Shown here: positions 28,207-52,235 of the stretch, piece by piece
Position numbering within the stretch: position 1 is the first letter of the stretch
How the letters are laid out: every line of letters begins with the position of its first letter
NCBI RefSeq assembly: GCF_009728935.1
Contig: NZ_CP034235.1
Location: forward strand, 2,952,001 to 3,016,000
Origin: Paenibacillus psychroresistens
Lineage (GTDB): Bacteria; Bacillota; Bacilli; Paenibacillales; NBRC-103111
Direction: 5' to 3'
DNA: 64,000 nucleotides
Notes under the pieces: generated by a model
Databases searched by the model: none
Seen by the model: only the letters and a program-made list of their open reading frames with translations
Told to the model about the DNA's origin: nothing
Translations under genes and position numbers: made by a program

Positions 28207-28253
28207 AAACCTCTAAATCCAGCAATCTAGTTGCTGAAATTTAGGGGTTTTTA
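28207..28253 (+). terminator. Terminator after ftsZ
   Basis: AAACCTCTAAAT/ATTTAGGGGTTT arms with a nested CAGCAA/TTGCTG pair, ending in TTTTTATTT. It closes the dcw cluster. Confidence 0.85.
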
Positions 28254-28318
28254 TTTGTCGAAAACCTCGAAATACAAGCCGTTTTATTGCTTGCGTTTCG
28301 AGGTTTTTTTTCGACAAA
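28254..28318. promoter_or_regulatory. Two inverted Spo0A boxes upstream of spoIIGA
   Basis: TTTGTCGAAAA (28254-28264, plus strand) and TTTGTCGAA on the minus strand (28318-28310) both match the 0A-box consensus TTTGTCRAA. The spoIIG operon of B. subtilis is a classic Spo0A~P target. A TATACT at 28370-28375 could be the -10, with TTAGAC (28342-28347) 22 bp upstream as a -35-like element; long spacing is known for the B. subtilis spoIIG promoter. The boxes lie farther upstream than in B. subtilis. Confidence 0.6.
28261..28311 (+). terminator. Second terminator-like hairpin before spoIIGA
   Basis: AAAACCTCGAAA (28261-28272) pairs with TTTCGAGGTTTT (28296-28307), enclosing CAAGC/GCTTG, and is followed by further Ts. 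Its outer flanks are the two Spo0A-like boxes, so the site may double as a binding region. Confidence 0.7.
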
Positions 28319-28434
28319 AAAACCAAAAAGCTCAGGCGGTTTTAGACAGACTTCGTAAAGCTAAACCAGTATACTAAGCTCATTCATCGCGAAAGGCGTG
28401 TCTATGCAATGGAATATTTTTGGAGGCTTCAACG

Positions 28435-36554: not shown

Positions 36555-36820
36555 AATTAATGTACATCAGAAAGCGATGAATGGGACGAGTACAACGAAG
36601 GAATGAAAGCAGCGAATTAGGAATTGGTGAGAGCCTAATATTCATTCACGTTGGAATATCATCCACGAGTATCTCTTGAATAAGTAAGCTGTAAAGAGTA
36701 TCGGGTGATTCCGTTAACAATCATCGAGTGGGGTTTATGCTGTATTCTATACAGCATGAAGCTTATTAGGGTGGTACCGCGAGTTAACTTTCGTCCCTTT
36801 GGGATGGAGGTTTTTTTTGT
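36555..36820 (+). ncRNA. T-box leader of ileS, isoleucine specifier
   Basis: A tRNA-sensing leader that fills the 348-bp gap before ileS. Stem I has GACGAGTAC on the 5' side and GTTGGAATATC on the 3' side; ATC at 36658-36660 is the likely specifier codon, followed by the usual purine. The T-box sequence AGGGTGGTACCGCG is at 36768-36781, where uncharged tRNA-Ile would pair through its NCCA end. The terminator 36786-36818 is AACTTTCGTCCC/GGGATGGAGGTT with eight Ts. Uncharged tRNA favours the antiterminator and ileS expression. Exact stem I pairing was judged by eye. Confidence 0.92.
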
Positions 36821-36850: not shown

Positions 36851-39616
36851 ATGGATTATGGAAAAACCTTGAACTTACCGCAAACAGATTTCCCTATGCG
36901 AGGAAATTTGCCACAAGCAGAACCGAAAATTCAGCAATGGTGGGACGAAATTGATATTTATGCACAGGTTCAAGCTCAAAGTAAAGGCAAACCGAAATTT
37001 ATCCTTCATGATGGTCCTCCATATGCTAATGGAGATATTCATATTGGGCATGCTTTGAATAAGATACTTAAGGATATCATTGTGCGCTATAAATCGCTTC
37101 AAGGCTTTGATTCACCTTTTGTACCAGGCTGGGATACACATGGCTTGCCGATTGAACAGGCCATTACGAATGGCGGCAAGGTGGATCGTAAGAAAATGAG
37201 TATCTCTGAATTCAGAGAATACTGTAAGGAATATGCGCTAAGCTGGGTAGAGAAACAAAAAGTACAATTTCAGCGCTTAGCTATCCGAGGTGATTGGGAA
37301 AACCCATATATCACTCTACAGCCTCAATATGAAGCACAGCAAATTCGTGTTTTTGGCGATATGGTTAAAAAAGGTTATATCTACAAAGGACTGCGACCGG
37401 TATATTGGTCTCCATCCTCTGAGAGTGCATTAGCTGAAGCTGAAATCGAATATAAGGAGAAAACTTCTCCTTCCATATATGTAGCGTTTCAAGTTAAAGA
37501 TGGTAAAGGCAAGCTGCCTCAGGATGCGGCAATCGTCATTTGGACAACGACTCCTTGGACGCTGCCTGCTAACTTGGGAATTAGTTTAAATCCTAAGTTC
37601 ATTTATGTAGTTGTAGAAGTTAACGCGAAAAAATATATAGTTGCAGAAGGTTTATTGGAGAGTGTTTCTAAGGAATTAGAATGGAACGAAGTTAAAGTTC
37701 TTGATAAAATTCTCGGAGCAGACTTGGAATTCGTTACCTGCCAGCATCCTTTTTACGACCGTGAGTCCTTAGTTATGGTAGGCGAGCATGTAACTTTAGA
37801 AGCGGGAACAGGCTGTGTTCACACTGCACCTGGTCACGGTGAGGATGACTTTAGTATTGGCCAACGTTATAACCTGGGTGTCTTATGTCCGATTGATGAT
37901 CAAGGGAAATTCACACTAGAAGCCCCTGGTTATGAAGGGATTTATTATGAAAAAGCTAATACGCTGATAACAGACAGACTCCAAGAAAGCGGACATTTAT
38001 TAAAGCTTAGCTCGGTTGTGCATCAATACGCACATGATTGGAGAACCAAGAAGCCAGTTATTTATCGGGCAACAGAGCAATGGTTCGCATCGATTGATAA
38101 ATTTAGAGCTGAAATGCTTGAAGAAATTAAAAAAGTGAATTGGACCCCTCACTGGGGCGAGCTGCGTTTGCATAATATGATTGCCGATCGTGGAGATTGG
38201 TGTATTTCTAGACAGCGTGCTTGGGGAGTTCCGATTCCGATTTTTTATTGCCGCAGCTGTAATCATCCTCTGGTCAATGAGCAAACTATTGAGAAGGTAG
38301 CCTCTGTGTTTGAAGCGGAAGGCTCGAATGTCTGGTTCATTAAGGATGAAAAAGAGCTTTTACCTGATGGGATTACCTGTCCTGAATGCGGGCACGATCA
38401 ATTTCGTAAAGAAAATGATATTATGGATGTATGGTTCGATTCAGGCTCAAGCCACATAGCTGTTCTAGAATCCCGTCCAGAGCTGCAATGGCCTGCTGAT
38501 TTATACATGGAAGGCTCAGATCAATATCGCGGCTGGTATAACTCATCCTTAATTACAGGTACTGCAGTGCGTGGCAGCTCGCCATACAAGGCAATTCTGA
38601 GTCATGGTTTTGCACTAGATGGTGAAGGCAAGAAGATGTCTAAATCTTTAGGCAATACTATTGATCCCAACAAAGTTTGCAATAGCTTAGGTGCTGATAT
38701 CTTGCGTCTGTGGGTTTCTTCCGTTGATTATCAATCGGATGTACGAATTTCGGACAATATCCTTAGCCAAATAACAGAAGTTTACCGTAAAATCCGCAAC
38801 ACCTTAAGATTCTTGTTAAGTAATTTAGCTGGTTTTGATCCATCGACAGATCAAGTGAGTGAAGATCAGCTGGATGAATTGGATCGTTTTACTTTGGGAC
38901 AGCTGGATCAAATGTCTGAACGCGTTTTAGCGGCTTATGAAAGCTATGAGTTCCACATTGTTTACCAATCCGTGCATCATTTCTGTGCAGTGGATTTAAG
39001 TGCGCTTTATCTGGATATTGTTAAAGATCGCCTTTATGCAAGTTCTCCTAATGGTGCAGGGAGAAGAGCGGCTCAGACTGTTTTGTACGAAGCTTTAACA
39101 ACGATTACTCGCTTAATTGCACCAGTTCTACCTCATACTGCGGATGAAATCTGGAAGTTCATTCCGGGTGTTGAACAAATCAGTGTGCAGCTCTCTCAGA
39201 TGCCTAAGGTCGAGCAGAATCGATATGATGCAGCTTTAGAGCATAAATGGCTGGAGTTCATTGAAATTCGGGATGACGTTCTAAAAGCACTGGAAGATGC
39301 ACGGGCTAAGAAACTAATCGGCAATGCATTAGGAGCAACAATTGATTTATATGTGGATGAAGCTACTGCTGGTTTATTGTCAAAGTTCGAACAATTGGAA
39401 CAATTGTTTATTGTTTCAAAGGTAGTCGTGCATACAGAAAGCAGCATTCCAGATGAGGCGATCCAATTTAAAAAACTAGCCGTTCGGGTGACATCAGCTG
39501 AAGGTGAAAAGTGTGAGCGATGCTGGAATGTAACATCTGAAGTAGGCGAAAGTCCGGTTCATCCAACTCTTTGTAAACGTTGTGCTGAGGTTGTTTCAGC
39601 TCATTATGAGGTTTAA
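36851..39616 (+). CDS. ileS: Isoleucyl-tRNA synthetase
   Basis: Class I aminoacyl-tRNA synthetase, 921 residues. It shows [20 protein letters not shown] (the HIGH motif), the editing-domain blocks [11 protein letters not shown] and [16 protein letters not shown], and KKMSKSLGN. The C-terminal zinc site is CERCWN...CKRC. The size and zinc site fit the mupirocin-sensitive bacterial type I form. Regulated by the T-box just upstream. No strong terminator was found before the convergent gene. Confidence 0.97.
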
Positions 39617-43354: not shown

Positions 43355-43383
43355 TTGACATCTTTTGTCGAAAATGCGATAAT
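43355..43383 (+). promoter_or_regulatory. pyr operon promoter with an embedded Spo0A box
   Basis: TTGACA (43355-43360), a 17-bp spacer and GATAAT (43378-43383) make a near-consensus SigA promoter. The spacer contains TTTTGTCGAAAA (43363-43374), a perfect 12-bp match to an extended 0A box. Bound Spo0A~P there would be expected to block RNA polymerase. Confidence 0.75.
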
Positions 43384-43389
43384 TCTTTT

Positions 43390-44159
<770 letters not shown>

Positions 44160-44165
44160 TGCGGA

Positions 44166-45083
44166 ATGGCACAGGTAAAAACTAAAACTCAATCAATCAA
44201 GCATTTAATTGGTTTAAAGGGCATGAGTGCACAGGAGATAACATCAATTCTGGACAGAGCTGCTTTTTGGGAGCAATATCCTGCTAAGGTGACTCATTTT
44301 CTGCAAGGAAAATTCATTGCTAATATGTTTTTTGAGAATAGCACACGTACGCGATTTTCTTTTGAGCTAGCTGAAAAACGTTTAGGTGCTCAAGTGCTGA
44401 ACTTCTCAGCCGCGGTATCAAGCGTACAAAAAGGCGAATCCATTTACGATACGGTGAAAACGTTAGAAGCTATGGGAATTGACGCAGGTGTCATTCGCAT
44501 GAAGCCCAATGGAGTATTGCCTGATCTAGCTAGTAAAATGAGTATTCCTCTAATCAATGCAGGAGATGGACATAATGAGCATCCGACCCAGGCTTTATTG
44601 GATGTTTATACAATGCGTAAGCATTTTGGTGAAGTTCGCGGACTGCATGTTGTTATTATTGGTGATATTATGCATAGTCGAGTTGCGCGCTCCAACCTCT
44701 GGGCTTTACAAGCGATGGGAGCCAAAGTAAGCTTCTGTGCACCAGATAATATGCATGCGCATGACTTAGACGGACTTGCGGATTATATTACTATGGAAGA
44801 AGCCTTGCAAGCGGATGTAGTTATGATGCTGCGGGTACAATTAGAACGACATGAAGAGGGGCAAATTACACCATCTTCTTTAGAATATAGAGCGCAGTTC
44901 GGATTAACGGTGGAAAGAGCCTCAAGAATGAAGGCACATGCGATTATCATGCATCCCGCGCCAATCAACCGCAATGTTGAAATCGACGATGAGTTAGTTG
45001 AATGCCAACGCTCCAAAATCTTCACGCAAATCGGTCATGGTGTACCGATTCGAATGTCAGTTATTGAAAGAGCATTATCCTAA
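44166..45083 (+). CDS. pyrB: Aspartate carbamoyltransferase catalytic subunit
   Basis: Forms carbamoyl-aspartate, the first committed pyrimidine step. The 305-residue protein has the carbamoyl phosphate site FFENSTRTRFSFE, HPTQALLDVYTM and HPAPINR. No regulatory pyrI is present, as in Bacillus. No pyrP uracil permease gene separates pyrR and pyrB, unlike B. subtilis. GGGAGG precedes the ATG. Confidence 0.96.
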   Translation: MAQVKTKTQSIKHLIGLKGMSAQEITSILDRAAFWEQYPAKVTHFLQGKFIANMFFENSTRTRFSFELAEKRLGAQVLNFSAAVSSVQKGESIYDTVKTLEAMGIDAGVIRMKPNGVLPDLASKMSIPLINAGDGHNEHPTQALLDVYTMRKHFGEVRGLHVVIIGDIMHSRVARSNLWALQAMGAKVSFCAPDNMHAHDLDGLADYITMEEALQADVVMMLRVQLERHEEGQITPSSLEYRAQFGLTVERASRMKAHAIIMHPAPINRNVEIDDELVECQRSKIFTQIGHGVPIRMSVIERALS

Positions 45084-45119
45084 CCTAAAAATCAACTTGG
45101 ATGGAGTGAGGAAGAAATC

Positions 45120-46406
45120 ATGGGGATTTGGATTATAAACGGTACGTTAGTTCACAATGAGCTTGAAACAACATTATCCCATCTTTACATAGAGCAAGGT
45201 AAAATCGCTCAGATAGTTAAAGCGAGTGGCGATGCGCTGCCGGCAACAGACGGACATGAGGTTATAGATGCCAAAGGCGCACTTATCTCAGCAGGCTTAA
45301 TTGATATGCACGTCCATCTCCGCGAGCCAGGCTTTGAGCATAAGGAAACAATTGCATCAGGAACACGCTCTGCAGCACGCGGGGGCTTTACAACAATCGC
45401 TTGTATGCCGAACACAAGACCAGTCATTGACACGGTAGAAACGGTGAAATATGTGCTTGATAAAGCCGAGCAAGAAGGCATAGTACGTGTGCTCCCTTAC
45501 GGATGCATTACGAAAAATGAGCTTGGCCGCGAGCTGACTGATTTTGCAGCACTAAAAGCAGCAGGCGTCATTGGTTTTACGGATGACGGTGTAGGTGTCC
45601 AAAGTGCACAGATGATGAAGGATGCAATGGCAAAGGCAGCAGCCATGGGAATGCCGATTATCGCACATTGTGAAGATAATACATTAGTGGAGGGCGCTCC
45701 TGTAAACGAAGGAACTTTCGCAACCAAGCATGGTTTGAAGGGGATTCCTAATGAGTCGGAAGCGATTCATGTGGGGCGAGATATTTTGCTAGCAGAGGCT
45801 ACTGGGGTTCATTATCATGTGTGTCATGTCAGCACGGAGCAATCGATTCGCTTAATTCGCTTAGGCAAGCAAATTGGGGTTAAAGTGACTGCGGAGGTTT
45901 GTCCGCATCATCTATTATTATGCGAAGAAGACATCCCGGGTATGGATGCCAATTGGAAAATGAATCCGCCTTTGCGCTCACGCAGAGATATGGAAGCTTG
46001 TATAGAAGCTTTAGAAGATGGCACGATCGATATTTTAATCACGGATCACGCTCCACATAGTGAAGAAGAGAAAGCAAAAGGGATGAATTTGGCACCGTTT
46101 GGCATCGTAGGCTTTGAAACGGCATTCCCCTTGTTATATACAAAGTTTGTTGCAACCGGCCGGTGGACTTTAGCCTTCTTGTTAGAGCGGATGACAAGCA
46201 AGCCAGCAGATGTTTTCAAGCTAACTTCTGGACGGATAGAAATTGGTGCAGATGCGGATTTAACAATAATCGATTTAGAGCAGGAGAAAGCAGTTGATCC
46301 AACTACTTTTGCATCTAAGTCAAGGAATACCCCTTTTACAGGCTGGAAGCTCAAGGGCTGGCCTAAGTTAACTATGGTTGCAGGTAAAGTAGTGTGGAGT
46401 GAATAA
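45120..46406 (+). CDS. pyrC: Dihydroorotase
   Basis: Zinc amidohydrolase that closes carbamoyl-aspartate to dihydroorotate. The 428-residue protein shows the metal motif DMHVHLREPGFEHKE, later histidines in VCHVSTEQ and CPHHLLL, and TDHAPHSEEEK with the catalytic Asp. Length and sequence fit the class I (Bacillus-type) enzyme. Short gap after pyrB. Confidence 0.96.
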   Translation: MGIWIINGTLVHNELETTLSHLYIEQGKIAQIVKASGDALPATDGHEVIDAKGALISAGLIDMHVHLREPGFEHKETIASGTRSAARGGFTTIACMPNTRPVIDTVETVKYVLDKAEQEGIVRVLPYGCITKNELGRELTDFAALKAAGVIGFTDDGVGVQSAQMMKDAMAKAAAMGMPIIAHCEDNTLVEGAPVNEGTFATKHGLKGIPNESEAIHVGRDILLAEATGVHYHVCHVSTEQSIRLIRLGKQIGVKVTAEVCPHHLLLCEEDIPGMDANWKMNPPLRSRRDMEACIEALEDGTIDILITDHAPHSEEEKAKGMNLAPFGIVGFETAFPLLYTKFVATGRWTLAFLLERMTSKPADVFKLTSGRIEIGADADLTIIDLEQEKAVDPTTFASKSRNTPFTGWKLKGWPKLTMVAGKVVWSE

Positions 46407-46433
46407 ATAGCTTTGACAAAAGGAGAGATGGTC

Positions 46434-47603
46434 ATGCAAGCAAGATTGTTATTGCAAGATGGAACTATTTTTACAGGGAAATCGTTTGGCAGTGAAGGTG
46501 AATCGACAGGTGAGGTCGTTTTTAATACAGGAATGACGGGTTATCAAGAGGTGTTGTCAGATCCCTCCTATTGTGGTCAGATTGTAACGATGACATACCC
46601 GCTAATCGGAAATTATGGAATCACACGCGATGATTTTGAATCGGTGAGACCTTTTATACATGGCTTTGTTGTGCGCGAGCATGAAGTGGCGCCAAGCAAC
46701 TGGCGTTCCCAATATACAATTGATAATCTGTTGAAAGAATATGGCATTATAGGTCTAAGCGGTATTGATACAAGAATGCTAACACGTATTCTTCGTAACT
46801 ATGGGACGATGAAGGGTATTCTCACGACTTCTCAGAAATCAGTTGGAGAGCTGCAAGAGCAGTTAACGGCAATGAGCTTGATGACGGATCAAGTAGCACA
46901 GGTTTCGACTAAAAGTGTCTACAGCTTCCGTGGGGAAAAGGAACGTATCGTACTAGTCGATTACGGTTCTAAGGCTGGAATTCTGCATGATTTAACTAAG
47001 CGCGGCTGTGATGTGGTTGTTGTGCCTCATGATGCTACGGCTGATCAAATTCGCCGTCTTGCTCCAGACGGAATTATGCTGTCGAATGGTCCTGGGGATC
47101 CGAAAGACGTGCCTGAAGCTGTAAAAACAATTGCTGAATTGCTTGGTGAAATTCCGATTTTCGGGATTTGTTTGGGGCATCAGCTGTTCGCTCTGGCTTG
47201 CGGTGCGGATACAGTTAAATTGAAATTTGGACATCGCGGTGGGAATCACCCTGTAAAGGATTTGAAAACGAATCGTTGCTACATCACTTCACAGAATCAT
47301 GGTTATACGGTTTTGGAAGAATCCGTTTTGAACACAGGACTTGAAGTCACTCATATCAACAATAATGATAAAACCATCGAAGGCTTGAAGCATACTAAAC
47401 ATGCAGCTTTCTCCGTTCAATATCACCCAGAAGCTGCACCAGGACCTTTTGATTCCAGTTATTTATTCGATCAATTCATCGATATGATTCGTACCTATAA
47501 ACTAGATAATCCACAAGCCACTCAGCAAACTAAAATGTTAGCTGCTGCTCAGTTGGCTAAAGCAACTGCACCGAAAGGAGATTTACAATATGCCCAAAAA
47601 TAA
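46434..47603 (+). CDS. carA: Carbamoyl-phosphate synthase small (glutaminase) subunit
   Basis: Releases ammonia from glutamine for carbamoyl phosphate synthesis. The 389-residue protein has the N-terminal [20 protein letters not shown] and the class I amidotransferase site FGICLGHQL with the nucleophile Cys, and SVQYHPEA. The ATG at 46434 follows AAAGGAGA; a TTG at 46413 is in frame but upstream of that site. It overlaps carB by 14 bases. In B. subtilis this pyrimidine copy is called pyrAA. Confidence 0.95.
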
Positions 47604-50600
47604 GGCACTAAAAAAGATATTGGTTATCGGATCCGGTCCGATTGTGATTGGTCAGGCAGCTGAGTTTGATTATGCGGGAACACAAGCCTGTCAAGCATTA
47701 AGAGAAGAGGGTATTGAGGTTGTCTTGATCAACAGTAATCCAGCTACGATCATGACGGATACTAACATGGCAGATAAGGTTTACATTGAGCCCATCTCTT
47801 TGGAATTTGTTACACAAATCATTCGTCAAGAGCGTCCAGACGGTCTTTTGCCAACATTAGGTGGCCAAACGGGCTTGAATATGGCTGTGGAATTAGCTAA
47901 AGCAGGCGTTTTGGAAAGAGAAAATGTTAAACTGCTAGGAACTCAATTGTTCGCCATTGAGCAAGCCGAGGATCGCGATTTATTCAAAGAGCTTATGAAG
48001 GAATTAGAACAACCGATTCCCGATAGCATTATTGTTACTGCGATTGACGAAGCTGTAGAATTCTCACGGGAGATAGGCTTTCCGCTTATCATCCGCCCTG
48101 CTTATACATTAGGTGGAACTGGCGGCGGGATTTGCAACACCGAAGAAGAATTGATCGAGATTGTTACAGCTGGGATTCGTTATAGTCCAATTGGACAATG
48201 TCTAGTTGAGAAGAGTATTGCGGGCCTTAAAGAAGTTGAATATGAAGTTATGCGTGATGCAAACGACAACTGTATAGTGGTTTGTAATATGGAGAATTTT
48301 GATCCGGTTGGCGTACATACAGGGGATAGCATCGTTGTTGCACCTAGCCAAACCTTGTCTGATCGTGAATATCAAATGCTGCGTTCCGCTTCACTAAAAA
48401 TTATCCGCGCGCTTAATATCGAGGGTGGCTGTAACGTACAGTACGCACTTGATCCACAAAGCTTTCAATATTATGTAATTGAGGTTAATCCTCGTGTTAG
48501 CCGCTCATCGGCACTTGCTTCTAAAGCAACTGGTTATCCGATTGCGAAGATGGCCGCTAAGATTGCTATCGGTTACACATTGGACGAGATTGTTAACCCA
48601 GTTACAGGACAAACCTATGCTTGCTTCGAGCCAGCTTTGGATTACATTGTTTCAAAAATACCTCGTTGGCCGTTTGATAAATTCGTTGCGGCAAACCGTA
48701 AATTAGGCACTCAAATGAAAGCAACTGGAGAGGTTATGGCGATTGGCCGGACCTTTGAGGAATCGATTCATAAAGCAATTCGTTCATTAGAAATTGGCGT
48801 ACATCGCTTGTTCCTTAAGGAAGCTGTAGGGATTGCTAGAGATGTTCTTGAGCTTAGATTGCAAAAGCCGGATGATGAGCGAATTTTCCTAATTGCTGAA
48901 GCTTATCGTATGGGTTATACCTTAGAAGAAATTCAACAGCTAACGAATATTGACTGGTGGTTCCTGCACAAGCTGCAAGGCTTGGTTTCATTTGAAACCG
49001 ACATTCAAGCAACTGAACTAAGCTATGACTTGTTGTACGAAGCTAAACGCAAAGGCTTTACGGATCGTGCGATTGCTGAGATTCGCAGCAATGCTGGACG
49101 TGGGCTTACTTATACGAACGAGAATGAAATTCGGATTTACCGCAAAGGGCTTGGTTTGATCCCTGTTTATAAAATGGTAGATACCTGTGCGGCTGAATTT
49201 GAAGCTTCAACACCTTACTACTATTCGACATATGAAACAGAAGATGAAGTGCTTGAAACAACTAAGGAGAAGGTTGTTGTATTGGGCTCAGGTCCAATTC
49301 GCATCGGCCAAGGAATTGAATTCGACTATTCAACTGTACATGCAGTCTGGGCGATTCAAGAAGCAGGTTACGAGGCAGTAATCATCAATAACAACCCAGA
49401 AACAGTTTCAACGGATTTCAGTACTTCTGACCGACTTTATTTTGAACCTTTGTTCTTCGAAGATGTAATGAATGTCATTGAACGTGAAAAACCAATTGGC
49501 GTTATCGTGCAATTCGGTGGGCAAACGGCGATTAACCTAGCTGCTCCGCTTTCTAAAGCAGGCGTTAAAATTCTTGGTACGGATTTGGCTGACATTGATG
49601 CTGCTGAAGATCGCAAGAAATTCGAAGCTTTATTAACCAGCTTGAATATTGCTCAACCTCCTGGCGGTACTGTTACTTCAGTCGATCAAGCTGTAGGTGT
49701 TGCATCGAGATTTGGTTATCCGGTCTTGGTTCGTCCTTCGTATGTACTAGGTGGGCGTGCTATGGAAATCGTTTATAGTGATGAAGAATTGTTGAGCTAC
49801 ATGGAATACGCAGTAACGATTAATCCAGAGCATCCGGTGTTAATTGACCGTTACATGCTGGGTAAAGAGGTTGAAGTTGACGCGATCTGCGACCGTGAAA
49901 CGGTGCTTATCCCAGGAATTATGGAGCATGTAGAGCGCGCAGGCGTTCACTCCGGTGACTCCATTGCGGTATATCCTCCGCAGTCGCTTTCTGCTGAGAT
50001 TAAGGCGAAAATTTGTGCGATTACAGAGAAAATAGCTTTGGCATTAAATGTTATTGGGTTAGTCAACATCCAATATGTTATTTTTAACAATGAGGTTTAT
50101 GTCATTGAAGTTAACCCGCGTTCTTCGAGAACGGTGCCTTTCTTAAGCAAGGTGACCAAAATTCCGATGGCGAATGTAGCTACTAAGCTGATCATGGGCA
50201 AAAAGCTCAAGGAGCTTGGCTATGAGAATGGTCTATGGCCAGAAGATGAGTATGTTTCGGTTAAAGTACCTGTGTTCTCGTTTGCTAAGCTGCGTCGTGT
50301 AGATACAACGCTCGGGCCTGAAATGAAATCAACTGGTGAAGTTATGGGACGCGATAAAGTATTCGCCAAAGCCTTGTACAAAGGTTTGATTGGATCAGGG
50401 ATGAAAATTCCGCCAACTGGCTCCATTATTGTGACTGTTGCCGATAAAGATAAGGAAGAAGCTATCGAAATTCTTCGAGGCTTTGACCGCATGGGCTATA
50501 AAATCGTGGCAACTGGCGGCACTGCAATCGCATTTACAGATGCGGGTCTGCGTGTAACAACCGTGAACAAGCTAAGCGAAGGATCACCGAATATTCTTGA

Positions 50601-50841
50601 CTTGATCCGCAATGGCGAAGCCCACTTTGTAGTCAATACTCTGACTAAGGGTAAGGCTCCAGAACGTGATGGCTTCCGAATCCGTCGTGAAGCAGTAGAA
50701 AACGGCATTGTTTGTATGACATCCTTGGATACCGTACGTGCGCTGCAGGTTATGCTGGAGACGATTAATTTTGCAACGAACCCAATGCCGCTTAATGCGA
50801 TTATGACTCCAATGCCAGGTAATACGGTACTGCAACGATGA
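47590..50841 (+). CDS. carB: Carbamoyl-phosphate synthase large subunit
   Basis: A 1083-residue enzyme with two homologous ATP-grasp halves: [20 protein letters not shown] and [13 protein letters not shown] in the first, [18 protein letters not shown] and [12 protein letters not shown] in the second, then the C-terminal MGS-like allosteric domain ([19 protein letters not shown]). It makes carbamoyl phosphate from bicarbonate, ammonia and two ATP. Because this is the only pair seen here, it may also serve arginine synthesis. The stop is in an ATGA overlap with pyrF. Confidence 0.96.
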
Positions 50842-51593
50842 TGAATGAAAAGCTGCAAGCTCAAGGGACAACTAAAGATGAAGATCATGCCGGAAGAATT
50901 ATGGTCGCTCTGGATTATTCAAGTGCGGATGAAGCGAAGCTTCTGTTGAAGGAGCTTCAAGGCATTCCTTGTTATATGAAAGTCGGCATGCAATTGTTCT
51001 ATGCGGCTGGTCCAAGCTTTGTGCTGTATTTGAAGGAGCAAGGCTACAAAGTATTTCTCGATTTAAAAATGCACGATATTCCCAACACGGTTAAAGGTGG
51101 AGCAGAAAGCTTGACCCGCTTAGGTGTGGATATGTTCAATATCCATGCTGCTGGCGGGAAGCTTATGCTGGAAGCGGCTTTAGAAGGTGTGGATAAGGGG
51201 CTAACGAGTGGCAAGGCGGAAAGACCGTTAGTCATCGCAGTTACCCAGCTTACCAGCACAAGCCAGCAAATGCTTAATGATGAAATTGGCTTGACGGGAA
51301 CAGTGGAGCAGGCCGTTCTCAAGTACGCTCAATTGGCTCAAGCCGCTGACTTGGATGGAGTAGTTGCTTCACCACATGAAGTGTTGAGAATTAAGCAGCA
51401 GCTGGGAAGCAGCTTCATTACCGTAACACCTGGGATTCGTCCTACAGGAGCTGCAATTGGCGATCAATCTCGTGTAATGACACCGCAGGAAGCTTTCAGT
51501 CAAGGTACGGATTACATCGTAATTGGGCGACCGATTACTGCAGCGACTGATCCGCGGAAAGCGTTGGAAACTATTCTTGAGGAGCTGATCTAG
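50838..51593 (+). CDS. pyrF: Orotidine 5'-phosphate decarboxylase
   Basis: Last step to UMP. The 251-residue TIM-barrel protein has the catalytic [14 protein letters not shown] (Asp-Lys-Asp) and [10 protein letters not shown]. The first in-frame ATG overlaps the carB stop (ATGA); the core starts at [15 protein letters not shown], leaving an N-terminal extension of about 20 residues whose use is uncertain. pyrK and pyrD, which lie between carB and pyrF in B. subtilis, are absent. Confidence 0.94.
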
Positions 51594-52235
51594 TTGAGCA
51601 CAACGCAAACCTTACGTAAACAAATCGCAAGCTCATTGTTAAATATCGGCGCAGTAGCGCTTCGTCCCAATGAACCGTTCACTTGGGCATCAGGCATTAA
51701 ATCACCGATTTATTGTGATAATCGTTTGACGATTTCCTATCCAGAGATTCGTGATCTGATCGCAGACGGCTTTGCTGCCATTATTAGGGAGCAATATCCA
51801 GATGCTGAAGTAATTGCTGGAGCAGCTACAGGCGGCATTCCACATGCAGCATGGGTCGCTCAGAAGCTGAATCTGCCGATGATCTATGTACGTGATAAAC
51901 CTAAAGGCCATGGAAAAGAGAACATGATCGAAGGTGCTTTAAAATCGGGGCAAAAGGTAGTCGTGATTGAGGATTTGATCTCAACTGGCGGAAGCTCTTT
52001 GAAGGTTGCATTGGCTGTTAATGAAGCTGGTGGACAAGCGCTTGCTGTTCTTGCTATCTTTACTTATCAATTCGAAAAAGCGGCTGGGGTTTTCGCTGCA
52101 GCTAACATTCCTGTACAAACTTTAACGGATTATACAGTATTGTTGGAAACAGCCGTAGAGTTGGGTAACATTCAACTGCAAGATATTTCCTTAATGCAAT
52201 CATGGAGAGCAAACCCTCAGGAGTTTGGGAAGTAA
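51594..52235 (+). CDS. pyrE: Orotate phosphoribosyltransferase
   Basis: Joins orotate to PRPP to form OMP. The 213-residue protein has [15 protein letters not shown] and the PRPP motif [14 protein letters not shown]. It starts with TTG right after the pyrF stop, so it is coupled to it. Final gene of the operon, followed by a strong terminator. Confidence 0.94.

Follow-up and report, generated by a model that had tools for sequence, protein, structure and literature searches.

A Conserved Candidate Spo0A Box within the Core Promoter of the Pyrimidine Operon in Paenibacillus psychroresistens and Its Relatives

Introduction

Is de novo pyrimidine synthesis in Paenibacillus psychroresistens controlled by Spo0A, the master regulator of sporulation, in addition to attenuation by PyrR? 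The question arises from the promoter of the pyrimidine (pyr) operon in a 64,000-nucleotide stretch of its genome (NCBI RefSeq assembly GCF_009728935.1, contig NZ_CP034235.1, positions 2,952,001 to 3,016,000; the whole stretch is referred to as the window). In this promoter, TTGACA-TCTTTTGTCGAAAATGC-GATAAT at 43355-43383, the spacer is 17 bp long and the -10 element is of the extended type. A first-pass annotation, made from the letters alone, had described a perfect Spo0A (0A) box between the -35 and -10 of a near-consensus promoter, and this description was borne out: the whole 12-mer TTTTGTCGAAAA is located inside the spacer (Table 1). Here, we weigh the sequence evidence that this box may be, in all, a site at which phosphorylated Spo0A (Spo0A~P) represses the operon, a reading to which we assign a probability of roughly three in four.

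Conservation of the Box in pyr Promoters

Conservation in close relatives had been set beforehand as the refuting test for the proposed box, and the box withstood it. The family set is comprised of pyr promoters from 102 of 104 genomes of the window's family, covering 21 genera. The box was not used in promoter selection; the promoter finder selects for both the -35 and the -10, and the change counts of these two elements are therefore biased. The core TGTCGAA, which fits the general 0A-box form TGNCGAA, is exact in 86 of the 102 promoters and in 18 of the 21 genera, and its position is fixed, always 5 nt after the -35 (spacer positions 6-12) and at no other spacer offset. The spacer itself is 17 bp long in 101 promoters. 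Within a region that extends 60 bp 5′ of the -35 and 30 bp 3′ of the -10, TGTCGAA is the most frequent fixed 7-mer (85%). The flanks of the box are A/T-rich in the window and in many genera (TCTTTTGTCGAAA), with G+C-rich left flanks in part of genera g18 and g21. TTGAC is invariant in the relatives, though it is a word that the promoter finder favours. A second set of named organisms, which partly overlaps the family set, has the exact box at 21 of 27 loci, including those of Paenibacillus piri, P. elgii, P. naphthalenovorans, P. rigui, P. foliorum, and P. contaminans.

On a tree built from the leader and the start of pyrR, the box has undergone 7.4 parsimony changes per site, compared with 20.4 at the adjacent positions s1-s5 and 33.5 in the 20 nt upstream, and the box as a whole accounts for 12 state changes. 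Among the 86 box-bearing promoters, the 5 nt preceding the core take 40 forms and the 20 nt preceding the -35 take 81. The box is thus under strong purifying selection.

With regard to word counts, the window contains two exact copies of the 12-mer (0.03 expected; none of 100 shuffles reached two) and 11 of the bare 7-mer (7.0 expected). Genome-wide, the 12-mer is near background, with 8 copies in 8.1 Mb versus 6 for the reversed control, and four of the eight copies lie within long open frames. The earlier argument that a chance match is unlikely in 64 kb is weak alone, because the 7-mer is common and the 12-mer hardly exceeds its reversed control in the genome; rarity was accordingly set aside as evidence. 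It is the conservation in relatives that places the site beyond chance. Those near-background counts would be compatible with a functionless Spo0A-like word, inherited by chance or slow drift. However, this explanation is already contradicted by the conservation data, namely some three- to five-fold fewer changes per site than at neighbouring positions on the same tree, an identical core in 40 contexts, its presence in several families, and the candidate replacement sites described below, and we regard it as scarcely credible. It is nearly certain that the pyr spacer site is real and under selection at the DNA level; transcription starts downstream of the spacer, which suggests that selection acts on DNA and not on RNA. 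A literature search for the literal 12-mer returned irrelevant matches only, and nothing was found in the phage records searched.

Selection on the spacer could also reflect a conserved extended-promoter or RNA polymerase element that is not a regulator site, an idea favoured by the location of the box within the promoter, beside the conserved TG extension. However, promoters that have lost the word keep the -35, TG, and -10 intact, and a search of the P. psychroresistens genome found no second promoter with the layout of the pyr box. A general promoter feature is ruled out by this restriction to pyr, and a promoter element of any such kind is highly improbable.

Loss of the box is mostly all-or-none, with at least two mismatches in 13 promoters and one mismatch in 3, which fits a binding site freed from constraint. 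Of the 16 promoters that lack the exact box, 8 have TGTCGA or TCGACA no more than 60 bp 5′ of the -35, versus 13 of the 86 that have the box (Fisher p = 0.004, which is indicative since the species are related). In three of these 8 (G068, G072, and G081), the distance from the first base of the upstream box to the -35 is exactly 10 bp; five genomes of g21 have two upstream copies exactly 10 bp apart. These upstream words are candidate replacement sites in some of the box-less promoters.

Identity of the Binding Factor

P. psychroresistens encodes an intact Spo0A of 267 aa (TIGR02875, 413.7 bits). Its DNA-binding domain is near-identical to solved Spo0A domains, aligning over the full 104 residues to 1lq1/1fc3, with SRVERAIRHAIEVAW identical. 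The second exact 12-mer of the window precedes spoIIGA, which is among the classical Spo0A targets, and a box is found upstream of spoIIGA, in exact or degenerate form, in most family genomes examined. In the window, this region (28250-28320) contains an inverted repeat around a terminator-like hairpin, with TGTCGAA on the + strand at 28256 and the 12-mer on the - strand at 28308. The 0A core has been described as TGTCGAA, in which Spo0A contacts G2, C4, and G5 (PMC3485338); these contact positions are conserved at 93-95% in the family promoters. It was also reported that Spo0A of P. polymyxa binds in vitro a promoter fragment with TTCGACA plus 0A-like boxes (PMC10782996).

TGTCGAA might instead be bound by another factor with a Spo0A-like target, be it a protein resembling PurR, LexA, or DnaA or some unknown regulator. 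All of the tested genomes that are adequately complete have spo0A (detected as Spo0A_C), and the two in the family that gave no match are only 68% and 78% complete; therefore, no natural knock-out separates Spo0A from a factor with the same motif, and the identification rests on the motif match. In addition, some of the species have CGAAC, which is reminiscent of half-sites for PurR and LexA, and DnaA and Spo0A boxes are alike (PMC5295017). However, what is conserved is the entire 0A core, with A or C as the next base, and its C4 speaks against DnaA (TGTGNATAA). The family spacers, read by eye, contain neither the inverted CCGAAC pair of PurR operators, the PurBox, nor the CGAAC-N4-GTTCG palindrome of LexA. 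The 12-mer upstream of spoIIGA and the 10-bp tandem copies upstream of relatives' pyr promoters also argue against a different factor, to which we give a small probability. On sequence grounds, the pyr spacer site is most probably that of Spo0A.

Some further Spo0A-type sequences were observed. A second such protein of 150 aa, which has the DNA-binding but no receiver domain, is encoded about 42 kb from spo0A (G000:C1:4425363-4425815; L241 64-516, -), and extra Spo0A_C matches also occur in relatives G096, G099, and G101. In G043 (C1:3447940-3448252) and G108 (C28:7119-7530), the match to Spo0A_C is divided between two reading frames, reflecting a frameshift or an assembly error; G043 retains the spacer box.

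Proposed Mode of Action

The core TGTCGAA would serve as a Spo0A~P operator within the spacer of a sigma-A pyr promoter. At the start of sporulation, rising Spo0A~P would occupy the box, keep RNA polymerase off the promoter, and close de novo UMP synthesis; the degenerate TGAC in the -35, located one helical turn upstream, may be occupied as well. This layer would stand above, and be independent of, PyrR attenuation, with PyrR remaining the response to pyrimidine pools. A protein over the -35/-10 spacer is the classic repressor geometry, and where the -35 is good and the -10 extended, the most plausible effect of a protein bound between them is to block RNA polymerase; the operon would therefore be closed by Spo0A~P.

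The site could be a true, selected Spo0A site at which Spo0A~P activates or fine-tunes pyr, e.g., at low phosphorylation for biofilm or extracellular DNA. Spo0A is generally known to activate several promoters and can contact the sigma factor at the -35, and nucleotide synthesis was reported to be up in early B. subtilis biofilm (PMC6529636). However, the pyr promoter is already near consensus, with TTGAC and an extended -10, and the box has the spacer position of a repressor site. Moreover, translation of the pyr operon drops in sporulating B. subtilis, although the passage reporting this does not attribute the fall to Spo0A (PMC11339384). Activation is thus unlikely, and repression by Spo0A~P is the preferred reading.

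The pyr promoter of P. psychroresistens has one perfect box, and the only word in a 10-bp register with it is the TGAC of the -35 (43356-43359), which begins 10 bp 5′ of the box core and is forced by the promoter consensus. A 10-bp tandem is a known Spo0A arrangement at abrB. Tentatively, and with less than even confidence, we suggest that the -35 doubles as a degenerate second 0A box (TGAC-N6-TGTCGAA), so that one Spo0A~P dimer straddles the -35 and the spacer, that this compact off-switch has arisen within Paenibacillales, and that the site has moved from the spacer to upstream of the -35 several times. Such a TGAC partner would explain the fixed 5-nt distance.

Distribution in Paenibacillales and Other Bacilli

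A strict pattern, TTGAC-N6-TGTCGAA-N2-TG-N2-ATAAT-(8-38)-CCTTTAA, was found in 120 of 392 Paenibacillales genomes, and its reversed control in none. The carriers belong to the window's family, to families f2 and f4, and to g40, g41, g42, g44, and g49 of family f10. Family f6 has one variant with an 18-bp spacer and the box at the usual distance from the -35. In g48 (L150, G289), the reversed box TTCGACA is present in the pyr spacer, 279 bp before the pyrR match, which hints at site turnover. In a 398-genome sample of Bacilli, the strict pattern was detected only in P. psychroresistens itself and in one other member (G694), whose match lies in surroundings without a PyrR leader and looks like chance.

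Several points weigh against the repressor-site reading. Spo0A as the binder, repression, the -35 half-site, and the timing are all things that we infer, repression being read from the position of the box. The genome-wide count of the 12-mer and the presence of spo0A in all adequately complete genomes tested, both given above, belong here as well. Much of Paenibacillales does not have the box: the strict pattern has no match in the sampled genera g31, g35, g37, and g39 of f10, and those representatives of each that were read out are without it. A spacer box is likewise missing from the 30 pyr promoters taken from other Bacilli; pyr shut-off thus needs no box in the box-less groups. General control by the box is not upheld by this distribution, which suggests a control specific to Paenibacillales lineages.

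Comparison with Known Systems

A close likeness is to Spo0A-repressed abrB of B. subtilis, which shares the TGTCGAA 0A box and, with the upstream pyr regions of some relatives, tandem 10-bp boxes; Spo0A~P repression of a growth-phase gene is also the role proposed for pyr. However, as is generally known, the abrB boxes are located downstream of the start point, whereas the pyr box lies in the spacer of a biosynthetic operon promoter. spoIIG resembles pyr in that spoIIGA of the window is preceded by the same 12-mer, exact or degenerate in relatives, and in having 0A boxes near the -35. It differs in that Spo0A activates it from boxes located upstream and in that its -35 and -10 are widely spaced, again as generally known, whereas the pyr promoter is complete with 17 bp. 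The sin locus of Clostridioides difficile, another gene of another class, provides a case of Spo0A as repressor, in which mutation of box G/C positions relieves repression (PMC7643835).

It was also reported that pyr genes of Clostridium acetobutylicum belong to an exponential-phase cluster (PMC2530871). In the literature searched on Spo0A with the pyr operon, pyrimidine, and Paenibacillus, a pyr promoter with a 0A box is nowhere described, with subscription-journal papers on the Spo0A regulon outside the search; the earlier statement that no such report was known stands within that scope. The same searches returned neither Spo0A binding data for this site nor, for these species, a spo0A-mutant transcriptome that covers pyr.

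The pyr Operon and Its Leader

The first-pass annotation had also placed PyrR attenuation at this operon, and a PyrR-type leader is indeed present ahead of pyrR (Table 1). In a local scan it matches RF00515 at 50.0 bits (E 3.6e-6), under the gathering score of 54, with pyrR directly 3′. Rfam misses the leader at the gathering score, but a reading of it as absent is overturned by the local scan. Box and leader thus belong to the same operon; they differ in that PyrR attenuation acts at the RNA level in response to pyrimidine nucleotides, whereas the box is proposed to be a DNA-level developmental layer upstream.

The cluster (43614-52235) has the order pyrR-B-C-carA-carB-F-E, and pyrP, pyrK, and pyrD are not located between these genes. 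The B. subtilis pyr cluster differs in having pyrP, pyrK, and pyrD among its pyr genes. dapL, encoding LL-diaminopimelate aminotransferase, lies 5′ of the pyr promoter. Elsewhere in the window, a T-box leader (36568-36801; RF00230, 112 bits) is located directly 5′ of an isoleucyl-tRNA-synthetase-like open reading frame at 36851.

Table 1. Positions of the promoter elements, boxes, leader, and pyr genes in the window.
Feature	Position	Strand	Basis or remark
-35 hexamer TTGACA, pyr promoter	43355-43360	+	sequence
Extended Spo0A box TTTTGTCGAAAA	43363-43374	+	exact match; core conserved in relatives
0A-box core TGTCGAA, spacer positions 6-12	43366-43372	+	exact in 86/102 family promoters
-10 hexamer GATAAT, TG extension 43375-43376	43378-43383	+	sequence; kept in relatives
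PyrR-binding attenuator leader, terminator hairpin and T run at end	43398-43559	+	RF00515; fold z -1.96
pyrR	43614-44159	+	NF003549, E 9.4e-73
pyrB, aspartate carbamoyltransferase	44166-45083	+	
pyrC, dihydroorotase	45120-46406	+	
carA (pyrAA)	46413-47603	+	
carB (pyrAB)	47590-50841	+	
pyrF	50838-51593	+	
pyrE	51594-52235	+	
Second exact 12-mer	28308-28319	-	upstream of spoIIGA; internal positive control

Implications

A clean natural comparison of pyr shut-off at sporulation is possible, as some genera have the box and others do not. If the repressor-site reading is true, the master regulator of sporulation would directly control a core metabolic pathway, de novo pyrimidine synthesis, across a large group of bacteria, and a developmental layer at the DNA level would be added to the textbook RNA attenuation. 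It would also explain how UMP synthesis stops at the start of spore formation even with low pyrimidine pools, where PyrR would leave the operon on.
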